A stretch of DNA of 64,000 nucleotides from Candidatus Saccharimonadota bacterium (GTDB lineage Bacteria > Patescibacteriota > Saccharimonadia > Saccharimonadales > Saccharimonadaceae). Below, piece by piece: positions 19,102 through 45,512 of this stretch. The translations under genes and the position numbers were made by a program. The notes under the pieces were generated by a model. It worked only from the letters and a program-made list of their open reading frames with translations. It made no database searches and was not told the DNA's origin. Location of the stretch: the NCBI GenBank assembly GCA_017545595.1, contig JAFWLO010000005.1, forward strand, positions 22,945-86,944, in the 5' to 3' direction. The stretch's first letter is position 1. Every line of letters starts with the position of its first letter.

Positions 19102-19141
19102 ACTAAAATTTTACGCCAATCATAACCTTCTTGTCAACCTC

Positions 19142-19372
19142 ACCAGAGCCGATTCCGGTATTCTATCCGAACCGTTTGCGTTTCCTCATAGTGGCGACTA
19201 TCTCTGGCATACTACTGGCCTTAACCATAGAAGTACAGACAGCCGCTACTGGTCTTCGCATACTTTCTCTACCGCAAGCTCTCATCTCCAGGTCTTCTAT
19301 TCTACATTCTTTGACCCTCAGGGCGGGAACATCAAGGGTAGCGGCTTTACAGTTCGTCGTGTCGCGTTTTTT
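19142..19372 (+). pseudogene. DGR variable-repeat cassette A (old, decayed)
   Basis: An in-frame lectin-fold C-terminus begins TRADSGILSEPFAFPHSG, contains RYWSSHTFSTASSH and ends GFTVRRVA. The variable-repeat part is 19172-19359. It aligns end to end with the template repeat at 43939-44126 and is altered mostly at template AAY codons. It also has many other changes (agg to aga, tcg to aca, tgc to cgt), so it is an old copy. There is no start codon, promoter, upstream domain or IMH tract. Confidence 0.75.
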
Positions 19373-19373
19373 C

Positions 19374-19600
19374 ACCAGAGCCGACTCCGGTATTCTATCC
19401 GAACCGTTTGCGTTTCCTCGTAGTGGCGTCTATAACTGGGACTCTACTCTCCTTAGCAATAGAAGTACGCACGGCCGCTACTGGTCTTCGCACACTTACT
19501 TTACTACATACTCTCACTTCCAGTGCTTCTACCCTACGTTCTTCCGTCCTGAGGGTGGGGACAGCAAGGGCGGCGGCTTTTCAATCCGTTGTATTCCTCT
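19374..19600 (+). pseudogene. DGR variable-repeat cassette B (old, decayed)
   Basis: A second tandem copy immediately after cassette A, in another frame: TRADSGILSEPFAFPRSGVYNWDS...GFSIRC. The variable-repeat part is 19404-19591. Most differences from the template are at adenines, with additional drift. The frame runs on into sequence antisense to cassette C, so the end is not a natural C-terminus. It is a promoterless fragment. Confidence 0.75.
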
Positions 19601-19631
19601 ACGAAGGATAACTACTAAGAGACACAGAAAA

Positions 19632-19942
19632 CTACCAAGTAGCACAACGAACTGCAAATCCATAACCTTTATTACCACCGTTTTCTGGATAAAAATCCGT
19701 AAATGAAAAACTTTGATGATTTGCCCCTCTCCGACTAATCGAACAAGAGGACCAATAAGCCCCGTATAAGCTCCTACCGTATAAAACCGCAGAGTTCCAA
19801 TAATATAAACCAGCATCCAGAAATCCTAGCGACTCGGATAGGACTCCTGAGTTTGCATTGTCCTTGCTTCCTACATTCATAGAAAGCGTTGAAATGAAGA
19901 GTTTGGAGAATATTTTTTCTTCAAGGCGCGACGCAGTAGCTC
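19632..19942 (-). pseudogene. Divergent lectin-fold cassette C (minus strand)
   Basis: It reads MNVGSKDNANSGVLSESLGFLDAG...AYWSS...GGNKGYGFAVRC from 19880 to 19632. In-frame similarity to the other cassettes continues upstream (an FSKLFISTLS-like segment) to about 19942. It shares the fold pattern and many positions with the DGR cassettes but is too diverged to be a direct copy of the template. It faces the opposite direction to cassettes A, B and D. Confidence 0.65.
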
Positions 19943-20067
19943 TTGCTCGGGAATGTCCGGAGCTTGCTAGCGAGGATGAAGGTGCCGAAGCCCCGTGAAG
20001 ACGGGCGCGAAGGACACCGGTTCCCGAGAAGAGCTACAAGTGCAAGCCCTGAAGAAAAAATACCATC

Positions 20068-20316
20068 ACCAGAGCCGATTCCGGTATTCTCTCCGAACCG
20101 TTTGCGTTTCCTCGTAGTGGCTACTATATCTGGGGTTTTACTGGCCTTGGCAATAGGAGTTCGTACGGCAACTACTGGTCTTCGCATACTTACTCTACCT
20201 CGCTCTCTTACTACCAGCGCTTCTACTCTACGTACTTCGTTCCTCAGGGTGGGAACGGCAAGGGCAACGGCTTCGCAGTTCGTTGTGTTTCGTATTTAAT
20301 ATTAACAAAATATTAA
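20068..20316 (+). pseudogene. DGR variable-repeat cassette D
   Basis: It encodes TRADSGILSEPFAFPRSGYYIWGF...GFAVRCVSY and then a short tail to a stop at 20314-20316. The variable-repeat part is 20098-20285. I count 26 differences from the template repeat, 21 at template adenines and 5 elsewhere, so it was diversified by the retroelement and then drifted. It is preceded by a shared junction sequence (caagccctgaagaaa) rather than by a coding N-terminus, and lacks an IMH tract. Confidence 0.85.
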
Positions 20317-20699: not shown

Positions 20700-20860
20700 A
20701 ATTATTTTATCGACTTCTCTCATGTTTTCTGAGAAACCCTTTTCGAACCCCGATTAATTATTACAACTTTCACCTTCGAGAACGAGTAAGCGTAGAGCCC
20801 TTTAGGGCGATTAGCTGATCGAGTTCGAGAAATGGCTGAACGTTGTAATAATTATAGGGC
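20700..20860 (-). repeat. Interspersed repeat, copy 1
   Basis: It contains the family modules gagtaagcgtagagcc, gggcgattagctgatcga and a 5' block beginning cgacttctctcatgttttct. The modules recur at 21476-21745, 39080-39480, 44384-44600 and 44884-45050. It is non-coding and lies between cassettes D and E. Confidence 0.7.
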
Positions 20861-20927
20861 GAGAAGAAAAACGTTCCGAAGAAAATATGAAAGAAGTCGT
20901 AATAAGTACAAGCCCTGAAGAAACATT

Positions 20928-21188
20928 ACCAGAGCCGATTCCGGTATTCTCTCCGAACCGTTTGCGTTTCCTCATAGCGGTTATCATCGCTGGGCTTCCG
21001 CCAATAACGTTTATAGAGGAGCTTATGCTTCTTATGCCGTTTCGCATGTTTATTCTACTACGACGGGCAGACGTATTGATTTTAGTGGCACTCTCTTTAA
21101 CCCTCAACTTGGAAGCAACATGGGCTTTGGCTATGCGATTCGTTATGTCGAAGAGGTTGGAGAAGTCTTTAACAGTCGCTTCGGCAAT
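20928..21188 (+). pseudogene. Divergent lectin-fold cassette E
   Basis: It starts with the shared ITRADSGILSEPFAFPHSGY block, but the core (HRWASANNVYRGAYASYAVSHVYSTTTGRRIDF...GSNMGFGYAIRYV) is unlike the template repeat. The N-terminal part therefore matches the DGR cassettes while the C-terminal part belongs to another lineage. Its end runs directly into cassette F. It is a promoterless fragment after the junction sequence caagccctgaagaaa. Confidence 0.6.
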
Positions 21189-21190
21189 TT

Positions 21191-21454
21191 CCCAGAGCCG
21201 ACTCCGGTATTCTCTCCGAACCGTTTGCGTTTCCTCGTAGTGGCTACTATTACTGGCTCTCTACTGACCTTTACGATAGGAGTTCGTACGGCCTCTACTG
21301 GTCTTCGCATACTTACTCTACCGCGTACTCTCACGTCCAGTACTTCCTCTCTACGCGCTTCGGTCCTCAGGGTGGGTACTACAAGGGCTACGGGTTCGCA
21401 GTCCGTTGTGTCGAAGAGGGTGGAGAAGCTTTTCTTCAAGGTGCGACGCAGTAG
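21191..21454 (+). pseudogene. DGR variable-repeat cassette F (recent)
   Basis: It encodes RADSGILSEPFAFPRSGYYYWLS...KGYGFAVRCVEE to a stop at 21452-21454. The variable-repeat part is 21221-21408. I count 26 differences from the template, 25 of them at template adenines and a single G-to-A elsewhere. It is therefore a fairly recent product of DGR mutagenesis. It lacks the IMH tract after the repeat, which suggests that it can no longer be rewritten, and it has no N-terminal domain. Confidence 0.88.
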
Positions 21455-21475: not shown

Positions 21476-21745
21476 ACGACTTCTCTCATGTTTTCTGAGG
21501 AACCCTTTTCAAACCTCGATTAATTATTGCAACTTTCACCTTCGAGAACGAGTAAATAATAAGTTTTCTCGATTCTTCTCCTGAGTGTCATAAAGAAAAA
21601 ACACGTATTTTTGGAGAAGTTCACGGACGACCGCGAGTAAGCGTAGAGCCCGAAGGGCGATTAGCTGATCGAGCGGAAGTCCGCCTGAACGACGAGAAAA
21701 ATTCGCCTGTTTTTCTCCGATATGAGAGAGATGGATTGGAAAACC
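21476..21745 (-). repeat. Interspersed repeat, copy 2
   Basis: The longest copy of the interspersed family. Read on the minus strand it holds a ggagaaaaacaggcgaattt module, the cgttcaggcgg...gctcgatcagctaatcgccc module with a gcccttcgggc hairpin, the ccaaaaatacgtgt module and the gacactcaggagaa module. A chance ORF spans it and recurs in other copies, but the frame shows no protein-like character. Confidence 0.8.
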
Positions 21746-21849
21746 TCTTACGCTACAAGTGTAAGCCCTGAAGAAAAATACTAACACCGACACGAAGAAG
21801 AAGAGAGAAAACTAATAGCTAAAAACTCTAAAGAAAATATAGAGTCCCC

Positions 21850-30050: not shown

Positions 30051-30489
30051 TATTCTACTCTATTCTACTCTATTCTATTCTCCTTTTCCTCTCCTCTTCT
30101 ACGCCGCCACCGCCGGCTCCACCATAACAAACTGGAGTAATGAGGATGCCGTAGACTCCATCTGCCCTCTCGGTTGGCAATTACCTAGAAACTCCGGCAC
30201 CAACAGTTTCTCCACACTCTTCGACTCAACGCTATCTATGAATGTAGGCAGTGGTTTTACCAGAGCCGATTCCGGTATTCTCTCCGAACCGTTTGCGTTT
30301 CCTCGTAGTGGCTACTATAACTGGAACTCTACTGGCCTTAACAGTAGGAGTTCGAGCGGCTACTACTGGTCTTCGCCTACTTACTCTACCGCGCGCTCTC
30401 GCAACCAGGCCTTCTACTCTACGGTCTTCAATCCTCAGGATGGGGGCCACAAGGGCTACGGGTTCGCAGTCCGTTGTGTCGCTCGGTAG
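30040..30489 (+). pseudogene. DGR target cassette G with clean variable repeat (5'-truncated)
   Basis: Open from 30040 to a stop at 30487-30489, with no start codon before the internal ATG at 30238. The frame opens in a low-complexity tctattctac repeat, then reads ATAGSTITNWSNEDAVDSICPLGWQLP, typical of FISUMP/C-type-lectin surface domains, and ends GYGFAVRCVAR. The variable repeat is 30289-30476. All 19 differences from the template repeat fall on template adenines. The stop is followed by the full IMH-like tract to 30539. The N-terminal part of the target gene, including any signal peptide, is missing. Confidence 0.9.
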
Positions 30490-30539
30490 GCAGCTCTTCC
30501 CCTTCGCGCCTTCTTCTGTCCCCCTCCCCCAGATTTTCT
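30472..30539 (+). repeat. IMH-like tract after cassette G (68-bp direct repeat, copy 1)
   Basis: A pyrimidine-rich tract covering the last bases of the variable repeat and the 3' flank. It is identical to 31062-31129 and, inverted, to about 45149-45210. The template repeat has a related but different version at 43889-43938. This VR/TR difference is what is expected of IMH and IMH* in a DGR. Confidence 0.88.
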
Positions 30540-30540
30540 A

Positions 30541-31061
30541 GGAACGGGTCAGGGTGGACAGGAAGGGGGCTGGAACGGAAAAGATTTCTGGAACGAGGAG
30601 TTGGATGATGAACGATTCGCTGGTGGAAAGTTAAAGTCGAAGATGACTGAGTAGCGGAAATAATCAAAATCAGAAAAAAATACAAAAACAAAAAAATGAA
30701 AATTCCAAGCAAATACAAATATCTTGATCGGAAATCGTAGCTCTAAATCTAATACTAATTCTAGAAATTGATTTGCAGTTTTGACGATAGGGTACGGTTA
30801 CGATAAAATGCAGTACGACAAGTTGCAGTAAACAGCCGAAAGGCTGTTTTTGCATGATAAAGTATTTATGGTATAATGAATGTGTAGTCTTGAACTGGAA
30901 TATCTAGTTTGGCTGTTATGGCTCGACTGGCTAGTTCTAAAATGTTCAGGATCAAAGAAAATCAGAGGCACACTCTACTGATAGTTAGAGTTCAAACCCT
31001 GGGTTCGGGCTATGGTTCGGATCTTTTGTAAGTTGTCTCTTTTAGCGCTTGAGTTTCTAGT
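30541..31061 (+). other. G-rich non-coding segment with promoter and terminator signals
   Basis: 520 bp without a convincing gene, enclosed by the two copies of the 68-bp IMH-like repeat. A hairpin AACAGCC-GAA-GGCTGTT with T5 (30829-30851) is a terminator candidate. TGGTATAAT (tataat at 30872-30877) is an extended -10 that would start a transcript near 30884 into sequence with possible stems, perhaps an ncRNA. The plus strand switches from C-rich to G-rich at the left edge of this segment. Confidence 0.5.
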
Positions 31062-31129
31062 CGTTGTGTCGCTCGGTAGGCAGCTCTTCCCCTTCGCGCC
31101 TTCTTCTGTCCCCCTCCCCCAGATTTTCT
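31062..31129 (+). repeat. Orphan IMH-like tract (copy 2)
   Basis: A perfect copy of 30472-30539 but without a variable repeat in front of it; only the final gttg of the repeat is kept. It is a probable recombination or homing scar. Confidence 0.85.
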
Positions 31130-32551: not shown

Positions 32552-32625
32552 GAGACTAGATTTTTTGACGGGCAGGAGCGTCGCTTTTGTTTGATATTTT
32601 TATACATTATTTTTTATTATAGCAT

Positions 32626-32734
32626 AAAAATTTATGTAGAGGGAGAGGAGAGTGTTCGGTTTTTGAGTTGTGGTGGGGTGTTTTAGGCTAAAAATTTATG
32701 TAGAGGGAGAGGAGAGTGTTCGGTTTTTGAGTTG
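32626..32734. repeat. 45-bp direct repeat pair
   Basis: Positions 32626-32670 and 32690-32734 are identical, 19 bp apart. The first copy overlaps the promoter region of the RNA methyltransferase gene. No coding content. Confidence 0.9.
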
Positions 32735-32850
32735 GATTGGAGTGCTTTTAGACTTAGGCTGTGGTTTTGTTTTTAGTTTTGAGCTCTGGGTGGTCTTGGC
32801 TGGGACGGAGGTTGACGAGAGGAGGAAAAGGGGTTAAAATAATGGAAGAT

Positions 32851-33073: not shown

Positions 33074-34264
33074 TCATTCCTCTAATAGCCAATCGGCAAT
33101 ATCAACAATACGGATACCTTCATATTGCATCTCGTGTTGTCTTGTACCAGCGATGAGGAGCTTCTGATATCCGCCAGGTATATTAACAAGCGGCGCAACC
33201 TCTCTTTCCATCGTCTCTCGCTCCGTTATCAGATATGAAACCTGGATATACAACTTTTCTCCGTCTTTGATTGCGACAAAATCTATTTCGCCATTTCGCA
33301 TCGCCCCGACGTAAACTTCGTAGCCACGTCGCATCAATTCAATCGCCACGATATTTTCATAAGTATCGCCAAAATTAGGAGTTTTTGTCCCAAGTTTGGC
33401 ATATCTAAAAGTGTGGTCTGAAAGGTAGTATTTATCTGTCGTAGCAAGATATCGCTTACCTTTGATATCGTATCGACGCACCTTATAGAAAGCGTATGCT
33501 TCACAGAGATATTTCATATATGCACCGATGGTTTTGTCGGTCGCTTCAAGATGGTTAGACTTGAGAACATTAGTAATGTTGCGAGCGGAGGTTGGTTTCG
33601 AGATATTATCCATCAAAAAATCAGAAACACCATCCATCACGGCTGGGTTTTTCACTCCGTGCTTATCTTCGATATCTCGCACAATCATCGTATCATAGAC
33701 TTCTTTGATGTAATTATATTTCTTTTTAGGAGTATCGTATTCATACGAGCCTGCAATGCCTCCCTCCTCTACATATTTCTCTAGGGCTTCATATTTGTCC
33801 TTGTAGCCAAAATACTCGACAAATTCGGCAAAAGAGAACGGATAAACCTCGATGGTATAGGTTCGCCCAACGAAGAGCGTGGCAAGGTCGCTTCCTGCAA
33901 GAAAGGCGTTAGACCCAGTGATATAGATATCGTACTTGTGGGAGGCGTGGAGACTATTTAGGGCTAGTTCAAAGCCTTCACACATCTGTACCTCGTCTAT
34001 TAGGAGAAAATTCTTTACTCCGTCAACAAAATGCTCTTCAACATAATCATTCAGGGCGTGATACTCTCGTAACTTCTCGTATTTTAGAGAAGAAAGGTCG
34101 AAACTGATAATGTTGGCATCATCAATGTTCTTCTTGACGTATTTCTTGAGGTTATCAAGCAGAATGGACTTACCGCTTCGCCTTACACCAGTGATAACCT
34201 TAATATCTTCTGTGCCCATCACGCCGATAATCTCGTCTAGGTATTTTCGTTTAATTCTTGCCAT
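33074..34264 (-). CDS. AAA ATPase with DUF4143 domain (copy 1)
   Basis: 396 aa. The N-terminal AAA_14 domain has Walker A GVRRSGKS (about 26-33), Walker B FLLIDEVQ and sensor ITGSNAFL. The C-terminal DUF4143 domain ends in a PD-(D/E)xK-like segment (GEIDFVAIKDGEKLYIQVS). The cellular role of this widespread family is unclear; a restriction- or toxin-like function is often suspected. Composition is unlike the neighbours: there is little strand skew, and it uses a leader with a Shine-Dalgarno site (aaagga) rather than a leaderless start. Together with its position after tRNA-Gln, this suggests horizontal acquisition. Confidence 0.88.
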   Translation of the reverse strand: MARIKRKYLDEIIGVMGTEDIKVITGVRRSGKSILLDNLKKYVKKNIDDANIISFDLSSLKYEKLREYHALNDYVEEHFVDGVKNFLLIDEVQMCEGFELALNSLHASHKYDIYITGSNAFLAGSDLATLFVGRTYTIEVYPFSFAEFVEYFGYKDKYEALEKYVEEGGIAGSYEYDTPKKKYNYIKEVYDTMIVRDIEDKHGVKNPAVMDGVSDFLMDNISKPTSARNITNVLKSNHLEATDKTIGAYMKYLCEAYAFYKVRRYDIKGKRYLATTDKYYLSDHTFRYAKLGTKTPNFGDTYENIVAIELMRRGYEVYVGAMRNGEIDFVAIKDGEKLYIQVSYLITERETMEREVAPLVNIPGGYQKLLIAGTRQHEMQYEGIRIVDIADWLLEE

Positions 34265-38984: not shown

Positions 38985-39480
38985 GCTCGCTTGCGGTCGT
39001 TTCAGTTTTTTATTCTTCTATCGATTTCTTCCATATTTTCTTCGGAACGTTTTGATGTGCTTATTTGTTTTCTAATTCTCTCTTTTATAGGAGGCTCGCT
39101 TGCGGTCGTTTCCATTTTGCGCGACCGGAGTTCCGCCAGCCCGCCGTCGCGGGTGTCGGCCTCCTTATCCTCGGTCGTAACCTGCGGACGTCGCTCAAAG
39201 CTGGAAACTCCCCGCTCGCCAACATTATTACAATAATTTTCCAAAGTTTGTCCGTGAACTTCTCCAAAAATACGTGTTTTTTCTTTATGACACTCAGGAG
39301 AAGAATCGAGAAAACTTATTATTTACTCGTTCTCGAAGGTGAAAGTTGTAATAATTAATCGGGGTTTGAAAAGGGTTCCTTAGAAAACATGAGAGAAGTC
39401 GATAAAACCTTTTCCAAAAATACGTGTTTTTTCTTTATGACACTTATGATAAGAATTGAGAAAGCACAATAATTCCCTGG
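38985..39480 (+). repeat. Composite interspersed repeat, copy 3
   Basis: Non-coding. 39075-39220 is a GC-rich module (ggctcgcttgcggtcg, cgaccggagttc, gcctccttatcctcgg, ctgcggacgtcg) that recurs as an in-frame insertion inside polA at about 56375-56540. 39250-39480 holds the ccaaaaatacgtgt and gacactcaggagaa modules of the repeat family flanking the DGR loci, present twice here. Confidence 0.78.
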
Positions 39481-42297: not shown

Positions 42298-43584
42298 TTA
42301 GGGTTTTAAGCAGCCGATAGGGACGACATAAAGCCCGTCTTCGCGACGATAAGCGACGTTGTTTGCGCCAGTTAGAACCATGTGGAAGGAGGGTTTTTTC
42401 TGGCGAGGGTTGAGTTTTTTCTCGAGGGCGCGCATATTTTCGGCGGATTGTTCGATTTCTTCGGGGCTTCCGCCGAGTTTTATTTCGACGAGACCATAAT
42501 CTCCTCCGTAGAGGTGGATGACGGCATCACATTCGAGACCGCTGGCGTCGTGATAGTGGGAGACTTTCCCGCCGGAAGGTTCGACATAAGCGCGGAGGTC
42601 GCGCATACAGAGGGTTTCGAAGATAAAGCCGAAAGTTTGAAGGTCTTTTAGGAGACCTTCGGGACTGGTTTCTAAGGCGGCGACGGCAATTGAGGGGTCG
42701 ACGAAATAGCGAGTGTCGGAGGTTCTGAGGGCGGATTTCGAGCGGAGATTGGGGTTCCAGGCGGAAATATCGTCGACTACGAAGATTTTTTTGAGGGCGT
42801 TGATGTATTCGGCGATGGTGTTGACGTTCGGGGAGGAGCCTTCGGAGGCGGAAATATCGTTTGCGATTCGGGTCAGAGGAGCTTGTTCGCCTTGGAGACG
42901 GGCGTAGGAGCGCATAATTCGGGAGATATAAGAGGGGTCGCGGCGGATTCCGTCAACACGAGAGAGGTCGGAATTTATGATGCCGTCGAGGTAATCTCGG
43001 GCGACGGCGAGGGAAGCTTCTTTGTCTTTTATTTTTAGGGAGTTTGGGAAGCCTCCTCGGGAAGCAAGATAGGCAAGATCGGGGACAGAGAGGGAACTAA
43101 CACCGCTAATGGGCTTTTTTTCGAAGAGGGATTTTAAGCTGACGGAGCCGTTTGACTCGCCAGATTCGAAAAGAGACATGGTTCTCATGCGAAGCCAGGC
43201 GAAACGACCGGTTCCGGAATGTTGGATTTCGTCGGAATTTGGAGGGGTGGCGGAGCCGGTTAAGATGAAGTTTCCGAAGCTGGATCTTCGGTCGACCTCG
43301 GAGCGGACGGCGTCCCAGAGGCGGGGGATAGTTTGCCATTCGTCGAGAAGACGAGGAGTTTTTCCTTCGAGGAGGGAATTTATCTGGTTAAGGGCGAGGA
43401 GTTTAGAACGGGAGAGCTCGTCTGGGTCGCCGAGGGATAGCTTAGAGCGGGAAAATTGTTCGGCGGTTGTCGTTTTTCCGCACCATTTCGGGCCTTCTAT
43501 AAGAAGAGCGCCGGAGGATTTTAGGCGGGATTTTATGACGGAGTCGATGATTCGGGGGCGATATTCGATTTTTGAATTAGACAT
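42298..43584 (-). CDS. AAA ATPase with DUF4143 domain (copy 2)
   Basis: 428 aa. Walker A EGPKWCGKTTTAEQF (about 30-44), Walker B RLLDEWQ, sensor ILTGSATPP and an arginine-rich segment (RFAWLRMRTMSLFESGES), followed by a helical linker and a C-terminal DUF4143 domain ending DAVIHLYGGDYGLVEIKLGG, a PD-(D/E)xK-like motif. It is a different subfamily from copy 1 (WCGKTTTA type). The start has an AGGAAT Shine-Dalgarno sequence and a leader. It is the nearest gene downstream of the DGR template repeat on the same strand but is not a reverse transcriptase. Confidence 0.88.
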   Translation of the reverse strand: MSNSKIEYRPRIIDSVIKSRLKSSGALLIEGPKWCGKTTTAEQFSRSKLSLGDPDELSRSKLLALNQINSLLEGKTPRLLDEWQTIPRLWDAVRSEVDRRSSFGNFILTGSATPPNSDEIQHSGTGRFAWLRMRTMSLFESGESNGSVSLKSLFEKKPISGVSSLSVPDLAYLASRGGFPNSLKIKDKEASLAVARDYLDGIINSDLSRVDGIRRDPSYISRIMRSYARLQGEQAPLTRIANDISASEGSSPNVNTIAEYINALKKIFVVDDISAWNPNLRSKSALRTSDTRYFVDPSIAVAALETSPEGLLKDLQTFGFIFETLCMRDLRAYVEPSGGKVSHYHDASGLECDAVIHLYGGDYGLVEIKLGGSPEEIEQSAENMRALEKKLNPRQKKPSFHMVLTGANNVAYRREDGLYVVPIGCLKP

Positions 43585-43752: not shown

Positions 43753-43888
43753 AGGATTTATAAAATAACAGGGGCGTAAAGAAAATCGTGCGTGAGATTT
43801 GAGCGTGAAAAAGAGTGTGCTAGGGGAGCTAAAATATGAAAAATTGAGTACGAAATTATGGTGTATCGATCATAAAGAAACGCTGGGG

Positions 43889-44126
43889 GAGGGGGACAGA
43901 AGCGAAGGGCAAAGAGGAAGCCCTGCTAGCGAGCCACGCAACGGACTGCGAACCCGTTGCCCTTGTTGTTCCCATTCTGAGGATTGAAGTTCGTAGAGTT
44001 GAAGTTCTGGTTGTGAGAGTTCGTGGTAGAGTAAGTATGCGAAGACCAGTAGTTGCCGTTCGAACTCCTATTGTTAAGGCCAGTAGAGTTCCAGTTATAG
44101 TTGCCACTACGAGGAAACGCAAACGG
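43889..44126 (-). repeat. DGR template repeat (TR) with IMH*-like 3' flank
   Basis: Core 43939-44126 (188 bp). Read on the minus strand in the cassette frame it contains 17 AAC/AAT codons (GNYNWNS...NNRSSNGNYW...SHNQNFNSTNFNPQNGNNKGNG), exactly at the positions that vary in the cassettes. All 24 differences in cassette I and all 19 in cassette G are at template adenines. After the core the sequence differs from the variable repeats (tgcgtggctcgc against tgtgtcgctcgg) and keeps a related pyrimidine tract to 43889, as expected for IMH*. It has no start codon or upstream coding domain, so it is a template, not a gene. Confidence 0.95.
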
Positions 44127-44196
44127 AGGAACAAGGCGGACGGTCTGCTGAAGAAACAGCTTACAAAAGATAGTTCCCGTAGGAAATACCCAGATT

Positions 44197-44225
44197 TTTG
44201 AACTCTTGGTTCAAATTGTATTATA
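44197..44225 (-). promoter_or_regulatory. Possible template-RNA promoter and 5' hairpin
   Basis: On the minus strand TATAAT (44220-44225) is followed by a TTGAAC...GTTCAA hairpin (44197-44215), 70 nt before the template repeat. No good -35 or TG extension is seen. This is only a candidate for the start of the template RNA. Confidence 0.35.
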
Positions 44226-44383
44226 AGAACCTTCAGAGTGTGTTTCTGATTTTCTTTGTTCCCGGAAGAAGAATTAGCTATTCGAAAATAGATGTTCCAT
44301 TCCGTGATCGATACATAAGTATTTTAGCGCGGATGAGAGGAAAGTGCAAGAAGTGGAAAGGTTTTCTGATTCATCTCTCTCAT

Positions 44384-44600
44384 ATCGGAGAAAAACAGGC
44401 GAATTTTTCTCGTCGTTCAGGCGGGCTCCCACTCGATCAGCTAATCGCCCTTCGGGCTCTACGCTTACTCGCGGTCGTCCGTGAACTTCTCCAAAAATAC
44501 GTGTTTTTTCTTTATGACACTCAGGAGAATAATCGAGAAAACTTAATATTTACTCAAACATGAGAGAAGTCGCTAAAACCTTTTCCAAAAATTCGTGTTT
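44384..44600 (+). repeat. Interspersed repeat, copy 4
   Basis: It contains the ggagaaaaacaggcgaattt, cgatcagctaatcgccc, ccaaaaatacgtgt and gacactcaggagaa modules in the same order as copy 2, inverted. It starts about 260 bp from the template repeat. Confidence 0.8.
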
Positions 44601-44725: not shown

Positions 44726-44883
44726 AGATGCCGTTGCGTTTATATGCTTGTGCTTTTATTTTTCTTTGTTTTATGGTGTAATATGTAGTAAAAATTTCCG
44801 CGGTGTTATAAAAGTACTCTAAAACAGTAAAAGTGTTCGTTTCTATAAATCTTGTTATTTTTTTGTTTTCTCTCTTCTTCCCC

Positions 44884-45050
44884 TTCATATCGGAGAAAAA
44901 CAGGCGAATTTTTCTCGTCGTTCAGGCGGACTTCCGCTCGATCAGCTAATCGCCCTTCGGGCTCTACGCTTACTCGCGGTCGTCCGTGAACTTCTCCAAA
45001 AATACGTGTTTTTCTTTTATGATATTCAGGGAAAGAAAGCGAGAAAACAA
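44884..45050 (+). repeat. Interspersed repeat, copy 5
   Basis: It has the same modules as copy 4 but stops before the gacactcagg module is complete. It lies about 100 bp from the 3' end of cassette I. Confidence 0.8.
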
Positions 45051-45148: not shown

Positions 45149-45512
45149 ATCTGGGGGAGGGGGACAGAAGAAGGCGCGAAGGGGAAGAGCTGCCTACCGA
45201 GCGACACAACGGACTGCGAACCCGTAGCCCTTGACGTCCCCACCCTGAGGATGGAAGAGCGTAGAGAGGAAGCCCTGGCGGTGAGAGGACGCGGTAGAGT
45301 AAGTATGCGAAGACCAGTAGTAGCCGTACGAACTCCTATTGTTAAGGCCAGTAGAGTACCAGTGATAGAGGCCACTACGAGGAAACGCAAACGGTTCGGA
45401 GAGAATACTGGAATCGGCTCTGGTTAAGTTGCTTCCTACATTCATAGAAAGCGTTGAGTCGAAGAGGTTGGAGAAACTGTTGGTGCCGCGACCTGCATAG
45501 GACTTTCGTCGC
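45149..45512 (-). pseudogene. DGR target cassette I with clean variable repeat and IMH
   Basis: On the minus strand, MNVGSNLTRADSSILSEPFAFPRSGLYHWYS...KGYGFAVRCVAR (45445 to 45194). Similarity extends upstream (GTNSFSNLFDSTLS) to about 45512, beyond which the frame is broken. The variable repeat is 45207-45394. All 24 differences from the template are at template adenines. The IMH-like tract (45149-45206) is identical to that of cassette G. A TATAAT box at 45560-45565 could produce an RNA, but the expected CPxGWxLP part of the domain is degraded. A full target protein cannot be made from this copy, although the 83-aa ORF could. Confidence 0.92.

Follow-up and report, generated by a model that had tools for sequence, protein, structure and literature searches.

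A template repeat of a diversity-generating retroelement and a possible library of headless variant cassettes in a Saccharibacterium genome

What is the role of a short minus-strand segment, rich in AAC and AAT codons, which recurs in altered form several times within the same stretch of DNA, and what becomes of the variants? The stretch analyzed here, referred to as the window, comprises 64,000 nucleotides of contig C2. The genome, which is 98.79% complete, totals 744,770 bases on 15 contigs. The window's organism is likely a gut-living Saccharibacterium; relatives of the same genus, all of them Candidatus Saccharibacteria, come from goat duodenum (G136), sheep ileum (G030) and roe deer rumen (G033). 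The reading which we favor, with a probability of roughly two in three (0.68), is that a split diversity-generating retroelement (DGR) writes variants of a lectin-like protein ending, that headless cassettes store these variants, and that they would be swapped back into a full-length surface-protein gene.

The template repeat and its copies in the window

The segment at 43939..44126 (minus strand) is 188 bp long, with 52 adenines among its 188 bases and 17 AAC or AAT (AAY) codons in a frame that reads PFAFPRSGNYNW...GFAVR. The initial annotation took it for the template repeat of a DGR from which related copies vary at adenines, and we are close to certain that this assignment is right. The copies at 45207, 30289, 21221 and 20098 contain 2, 5, 0 and 4 AAY codons, respectively, and their mismatches, when tabulated by template base from program alignments, are indeed concentrated at template adenines: 24 of 24 at 45207-45394, 19 of 19 at 30289-30476, 25 of 26 at 21221-21408 and 21 of 26 at 20098-20285, followed by 23 of 37 at 19404-19591 and 23 of 43 at 19172-19359. 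Pooling of the three copies with a full 3' flank, namely the headless variable copies V45 (45207..45394, minus strand) and V30 (30289..30476, plus strand) and the C5 copy, places 66 of 66 mismatches at template adenines, the chance of which is 1.5e-37 under random placement of mismatches. When the reference was swapped, 77% of the differences lay at reference adenines with the template in this role, as against 14 to 33% with each of six window copies.

The contrast between template and variable copies in their 3' flanks, which the initial annotation had likened to that of IMH* and IMH, holds in part. The IMH-like flanks of V45 (45149..45206, minus strand) and V30 (30477..30534, plus strand), both of which match the profile to model position 360, depart from the flank of the template at 28 out of 70 positions and have only its C-rich end in common. 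The C5 copy, however, carries the template's own flank (43883..43938, minus strand, ending in CTTCTGTCCCCCTCCCCCAG), with which it is identical for 56 bases, to CCCCCTCCCCCAG, before continuing into V45-like sequence. This switch lies at the shared C-rich tract, where it would be expected if a cDNA running past the repeat had been joined there, and the C5 flank is likely a trace of cDNA transfer, as judged from the sequence. A further 3' flank, recognized by profile match at 31058..31124 (plus strand), stands alone without a variable repeat.

The remaining copies of the window lie within silent cassettes on the plus strand, namely V21 (21187..21414, ends set by profile; without 3' flank), V20 (20058..20288), V19b (19370..19598) and V19a (19136..19365). 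Two cassettes of a second, divergent family were located at 19631..19911 (minus strand; 75 bits by profile, 74 mismatches to the template) and 20917..21150 (plus strand; 79 bits, 67 mismatches); no template of this family was found.

The template itself is enclosed in a span with inverted-repeat borders (43853..44324), the arms of which, at 43853-43872 and 44305-44324, are 20 nt long and 80% complementary. A dispersed intergenic repeat occurs in the window at 44370-44532, 44875-45037, 39250-39478, 20711-20789 and 21477-21746; two of its copies separate the template from V45 and others adjoin cassettes. It has no match in Rfam, which at the gathering threshold reports tRNAs only for the window. 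Furthermore, AAA_14/DUF4143 ATPase-like genes adjoin the template, cassettes or DGR loci: they were identified by Pfam at window 42301-43584 and L063:13955-15226, and by eye at L071:1070-2341 and in the relatives' loci L074 and L076, with Pfam also run on window 33077-34264. At window 32617-32744, a 64-bp unit is present twice in tandem (89% identical).

A reverse transcriptase on another contig

A DGR-type reverse transcriptase (RT), for which the initial annotation had suggested searching the rest of the genome, is present and intact on contig C8 (C8:106495-107598), where it is matched by a profile of five RTs of the genus with 623 bits (E 3.1e-188), and RTs of this type are present in 85 of the 147 genomes of the genus searched. 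Neither condition that would have refuted the initial annotation therefore holds, be it a scatter of substitutions away from template adenines or the lack of a DGR RT. An accessory open reading frame (ORF) at C8:107631-108368 scores 234.5 bits with a profile of the RT-neighboring ORF in relatives, and both frames are open, with 374 aa for the RT and 272 aa for the accessory gene. The RT motifs IGNLSSQ and YVDD fit the DGR-type IGxxxSQ and YxDD. Among solved structures it is matched best by 8ub7_A (E 1.9e-24), which has IGSLTSQ at the corresponding place; this entry, labeled 'Reverse transcriptase' in the table of matches, is presumably the RT of the Bordetella phage BPP-1 DGR. Searches of the C8 accessory ORF against PHROG and NCBIfam, and of the accessory ORFs of three relatives against Pfam, gave no match.

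The general Pfam profile RVT_1 missed the C8 RT at E 0.001, its sole match in the genome being on contig C9. This second RT (L001:980-2340) has an HTH gene just upstream and, according to PADLOC, likely belongs to a type VI retron. It was rejected as the DGR RT, its best matches being those of retron type VI (RT_VI 71 bits, HTH_VI 52 bits). A loss of the DGR RT from the genome was dismissed once the relatives' profile had found the gene on C8.

The template and the RT are thus on different contigs, C2 and C8, and the usual closeness of the two is not seen. No template-like sequence was detected in the 16.3 kb around the C8 RT (blastn, words of 7), and other matches on this contig are at 54-55 kb and 93 kb. 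Among 44 related RT loci with at least 2 kb on either side, out of 80 RT loci kept, 40 have an AAY-rich copy 42-404 bp away from the RT, the four exceptions being L150 (a contig of G136), L161, L180 and L192. The RT is on C14 and the AAY-rich copy on C4 in G136; both are on C60 in G120, at a distance of 27.5 kb, and in G011 they are neighbors. Since one DGR RT was found and this RT does not lie beside the template, a split element acting in trans is likely. The C8 RT would then copy the C2 template from a distance, and the mutated cDNA would replace copies that have the full 3' flank.

Headless cassettes, coding constraint and copying

The related cassettes to which the initial annotation referred belong to a genome-wide set. 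A protein query of the genome gave 58 matches. Four of these are the template, a gene on contig C4 and a pair of paralogous domains on C14, which leaves 54; the genome holds about 54 copies of the protein ending, nearly all of which are headless cassettes. A nucleotide profile built from V30, V45 and C5 and run on stretches of the genome gave 56 matches, the template and the solo 3' flank included. Their starts are clustered, with 21 of them within model positions 79-83, another 10 within 68-75 and another 14 within 29-36, as are their ends, 42 of which fall at 301-316, where the variable repeat itself stops at 302. The long flank is complete in V30, V45, C5 and the solo copy. The copy at C8:54783 reaches position 343 and thus has a partial 3' flank, yet 15 of its 35 mismatches are at non-A sites, which speaks against a simple rule by which flank-bearing copies vary at adenines only. 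Twenty pairs of neighboring matches lie at most 30 nt apart (7 head-to-head, 5 tail-to-tail and 8 tandem), and main-family and divergent cassettes often stand head-to-head, with few bases between them, at L063 (C7:16.8-26.8 kb).

These borders bear on the origin of the cassettes. Direct insertion of cDNA was set aside, since most starts lie about 32-46 or 79-86 nt upstream of the 5' edge of the template, and the cassette parts upstream of this edge consist of gene sequence without a counterpart in the template. Displacement of old strands during retrohoming, as another possible origin of the cassettes, would agree with their 3' ends. It is most improbable that the cassettes are each expressed on their own, as genes of small proteins which the DGR would diversify directly. 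Open frames of 80-100 aa do occur in many cassettes, and some include an internal ATG, but the cassettes start within a longer domain and at common points, most of them continue into unrelated sequence past GFAVRC, and the 3' flank is absent from nearly all.

Changes in the cassettes were counted on 35 full-length copies, after exclusion of those exceeding 45 mismatches or 3 gaps. Changes at AAY sites are alike in both groups, with 60 of 102 in the three full-flank copies and 630 of 1087 in the 32 silent copies. Non-A cells, in contrast, are changed in 0 of 408 and 332 of 4349 cases, respectively (Fisher 8.6e-14, for cells that are not independent). The 328 classified non-A changes of the silent copies comprise 171 synonymous and 157 non-synonymous changes and no stop, as compared with means of 122, 191 and 14.6 under random placement, where the fewest stops in 500 simulations were 4. 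When each distinct change is counted once, 59 synonymous and 80 non-synonymous changes and no stop stand against an expectation of 50, 81 and 7.3; of 1000 such simulations, none was free of stops and 15 were as high in synonymous changes. Internal insertions or deletions are limited to two, with lengths of 9 and 3 nt.

These counts are of specific importance for the question of whether the headless cassettes are merely functionless leftovers of duplication and decay, next to an ordinary DGR that diversifies the full-length gene. The richness of the silent copies in non-A changes would suit such a graveyard, as would several copies that are nearly beyond recognition, with more than 60 mismatches, and a scan for promoters and terminators around the template and V45, which gave sites no more numerous than in shuffled sequences. 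Decay does not, however, readily account for a lack of stops where 14.6 are expected, for insertions or deletions of 9 and 3 nt only, or for sharp cassette ends. The lack of stops could stem from the gene before copying.

Copying among cassettes is evident from two pairs whose common runs of AAY states score 15.0 and 8.0, as against a maximum of 7.03 in 200 shuffles. V20 (C2:43002) and the cassette C11:1080-851 are nearly the same variant, being identical at 17 of 17 AAY codons and different at 5 of 188 bases, and C8:54783 and C7:25497 have 9 identical AAY codons in a row. By such copying, variants may get to the flankless cassettes. At position 173, a C stands in 22 of the 32 silent copies, whereas the template has a G, as do V30, V45 and C5. 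Since the template of G030 also has a C at this position, the silent copies with C are likely older than a change in the template. These shared differences from the present template may therefore record earlier template versions and make the history of the DGR readable.

Relatives, the full-length gene and known systems

Nine relatives were inspected, which were picked for kinship or counts and are thus a non-random sample, with whole match lists for six and partial lists for three. Cassettes were judged by frame length, since matches like the variable repeat (VR) occur in 143 of the 147 genomes and their numbers alone do not prove cassettes, the domain also being found within ordinary long proteins. 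By this measure, six of the nine have cassette libraries. Frames of less than 250 aa contain 29 of 29 matches in G011, 29 of 32 in G136 and 44 of 46 in G120, and short frames prevail among the matches listed for G029 (of 133), G070 (of 90, where some frames of about 300 aa have several copies each) and G039 (of 59). G030 and G033 have 4 matches apiece. In G094 (L077), the design is the opposite, with 14 of 19 VR-like matches in frames of at least 250 aa, which might be many full-length, remote targets of one DGR.

Adenine-directed change recurs when the best copies of these relatives are compared with their own AAY-rich copy, with mismatches at A of 30 of 30, 26 of 26 and 18 of 18 in G011, 24 of 24 and 15 of 15 in G120, and 20 of 22 in the best copy of G136. 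After short or distant copies had been dropped, the comparisons among copies covered 21, 22 and 18 of them in these three genomes. In G120, three pairs agree at every one of the 17 AAY codons and another two exceed 100 shuffles; no pair of G136 or G011 has runs beyond shuffles. G136 has 0 stops (7.6 expected, range 1-16), and the counts in G011 (1; 4.2 expected, range 0-11) and G120 (0; 3.1 expected, range 0-9) lie inside the simulated range.

G029 offers the case of a library for which no RT was found, either by RVT_1 or by the RT profiles, even at E up to 10. No clear template stands out among its 133 copies either, the 126 extracted ones having at most 11 AAY codons. In the 120 copies that measure 186 nt or more, codons 1-60 are free of stops, and many variable codons change at positions 1-2 with position 3 conserved. 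Between the complete gene, of 780 aa, and a silent cassette located where contig C12 ends, 170 of 173 bases are the same, whichever way the copying went; with all other copies, the gene shares at most 17 bases in a row, and the 99th percentile for all pairs is 35. After the match, the C12 cassette ends as other cassettes do and is followed by another cassette. The matching cassette touches the contig end, and one mismatch 53 bases from that end argues against a plain overlap of contigs. A 141-nt match of two G029 contig starts, which looks like an assembly overlap, was left out.

Both this variant common to a full-length gene and a cassette and the large libraries, which six of the nine relatives have, add to the points against a graveyard, which we regard as unlikely. 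The 133 copies of G029 might instead be taken as a sign that gene conversion alone is at work, with recombination shuffling old variants while the DGR of the window's genome is dead or idle, and the separation of template and RT would agree with this. The intact RT and accessory frames argue against it, as do the three copies that depart from the present template at adenines only and the 22 of 32 silent copies with the other base at position 173, so that this explanation has a very small share of our belief.

In the favored reading, in which a DGR writes and cassettes store, a full-length gene is needed as recipient. The only full-length frame of this family found in the genome is that on C4, and its variable end is off the contig: the contig begins inside this minus-strand gene, of which 935 aa are present up to ...PRNSG, with the cut approximately where the repeated part starts. 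The gene has a hydrophobic stretch near its N-terminus, and this N-terminus looks by eye like the one of the G030 target, a protein of 1104 aa whose gene shares its locus with the template, the RT and the accessory gene. Its FISUMP match (26.5 bits) is under the cut-off of 41.65, and with PF09603 the G030 target is above the cut-off of 33.9 (39.9 bits) and the C5 copy below it (29.2 bits). The target ending of a relative was also modeled by AlphaFold, and the model, with a mean pLDDT of 44.9, was discarded as too poor. Cassettes might be moved into the expressed gene by gene conversion. Taken together, the coding constraint, the clustered ends, the copying and the G029 match lead us to infer, at the level of sequence, that the cassettes may serve as a working library. 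More tentatively, and with somewhat less than even confidence, we propose an archive written by a retroelement, in which the split DGR would write, the cassettes would file and gene conversion would read back, and which, as G029 might illustrate, could outlive its RT.

DGRs and silent-cassette systems are known as separate routes to surface-protein variation. If the proposal is true, a cell with a genome of only 0.74 Mb would combine a source of new variants with a heritable memory of past ones. We found no report of a silent-cassette library fed by a DGR in those parts of the open PMC literature that were consulted. In the survey by Roux et al. (2021; PMC8144416), the DGRs of Patescibacteria/CPR (clade 2) resemble the present one in the IGxxxSQ RT, the adenine-directed pairs and, probably, the lectin-like ending; unlike those, the template and RT are here on different contigs and the copies are mostly headless cassettes. 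The approach of that survey, as set out there, would miss remote targets. For the trans-acting DGR loci of Thiohalocapsa PB-PSB1, with 15 target genes reported, the authors' inference is similar, in that the RT and/or template acting on some of the targets would be encoded elsewhere; unlike in the present genome, no silent headless cassette library is described in the relevant portions of that report (PMC10907252). Surveys in which the parts are expected to be adjacent would also miss a template apart from its RT, and systems of this kind may hence be more numerous than counted.

In the DGR of Bordetella phage BPP-1, target, Avd, template and RT are in one locus. The best solved match of the C8 RT, 8ub7_A, is presumably the RT of this phage element, and the present element is unlike it in having an accessory ORF without a family match. 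The vls system of Borrelia and the pilS/pilE system of Neisseria achieve antigenic variation from silent cassettes, with many truncated copies, few full-length genes and shared tracts. The library described here is like both in having many truncated copies, few full-length genes and tracts in common. It differs from them in that its variants bear the adenine-directed marks of a DGR, the template and RT of which are present, and in that the transfer into the expressed gene is a step that we infer.
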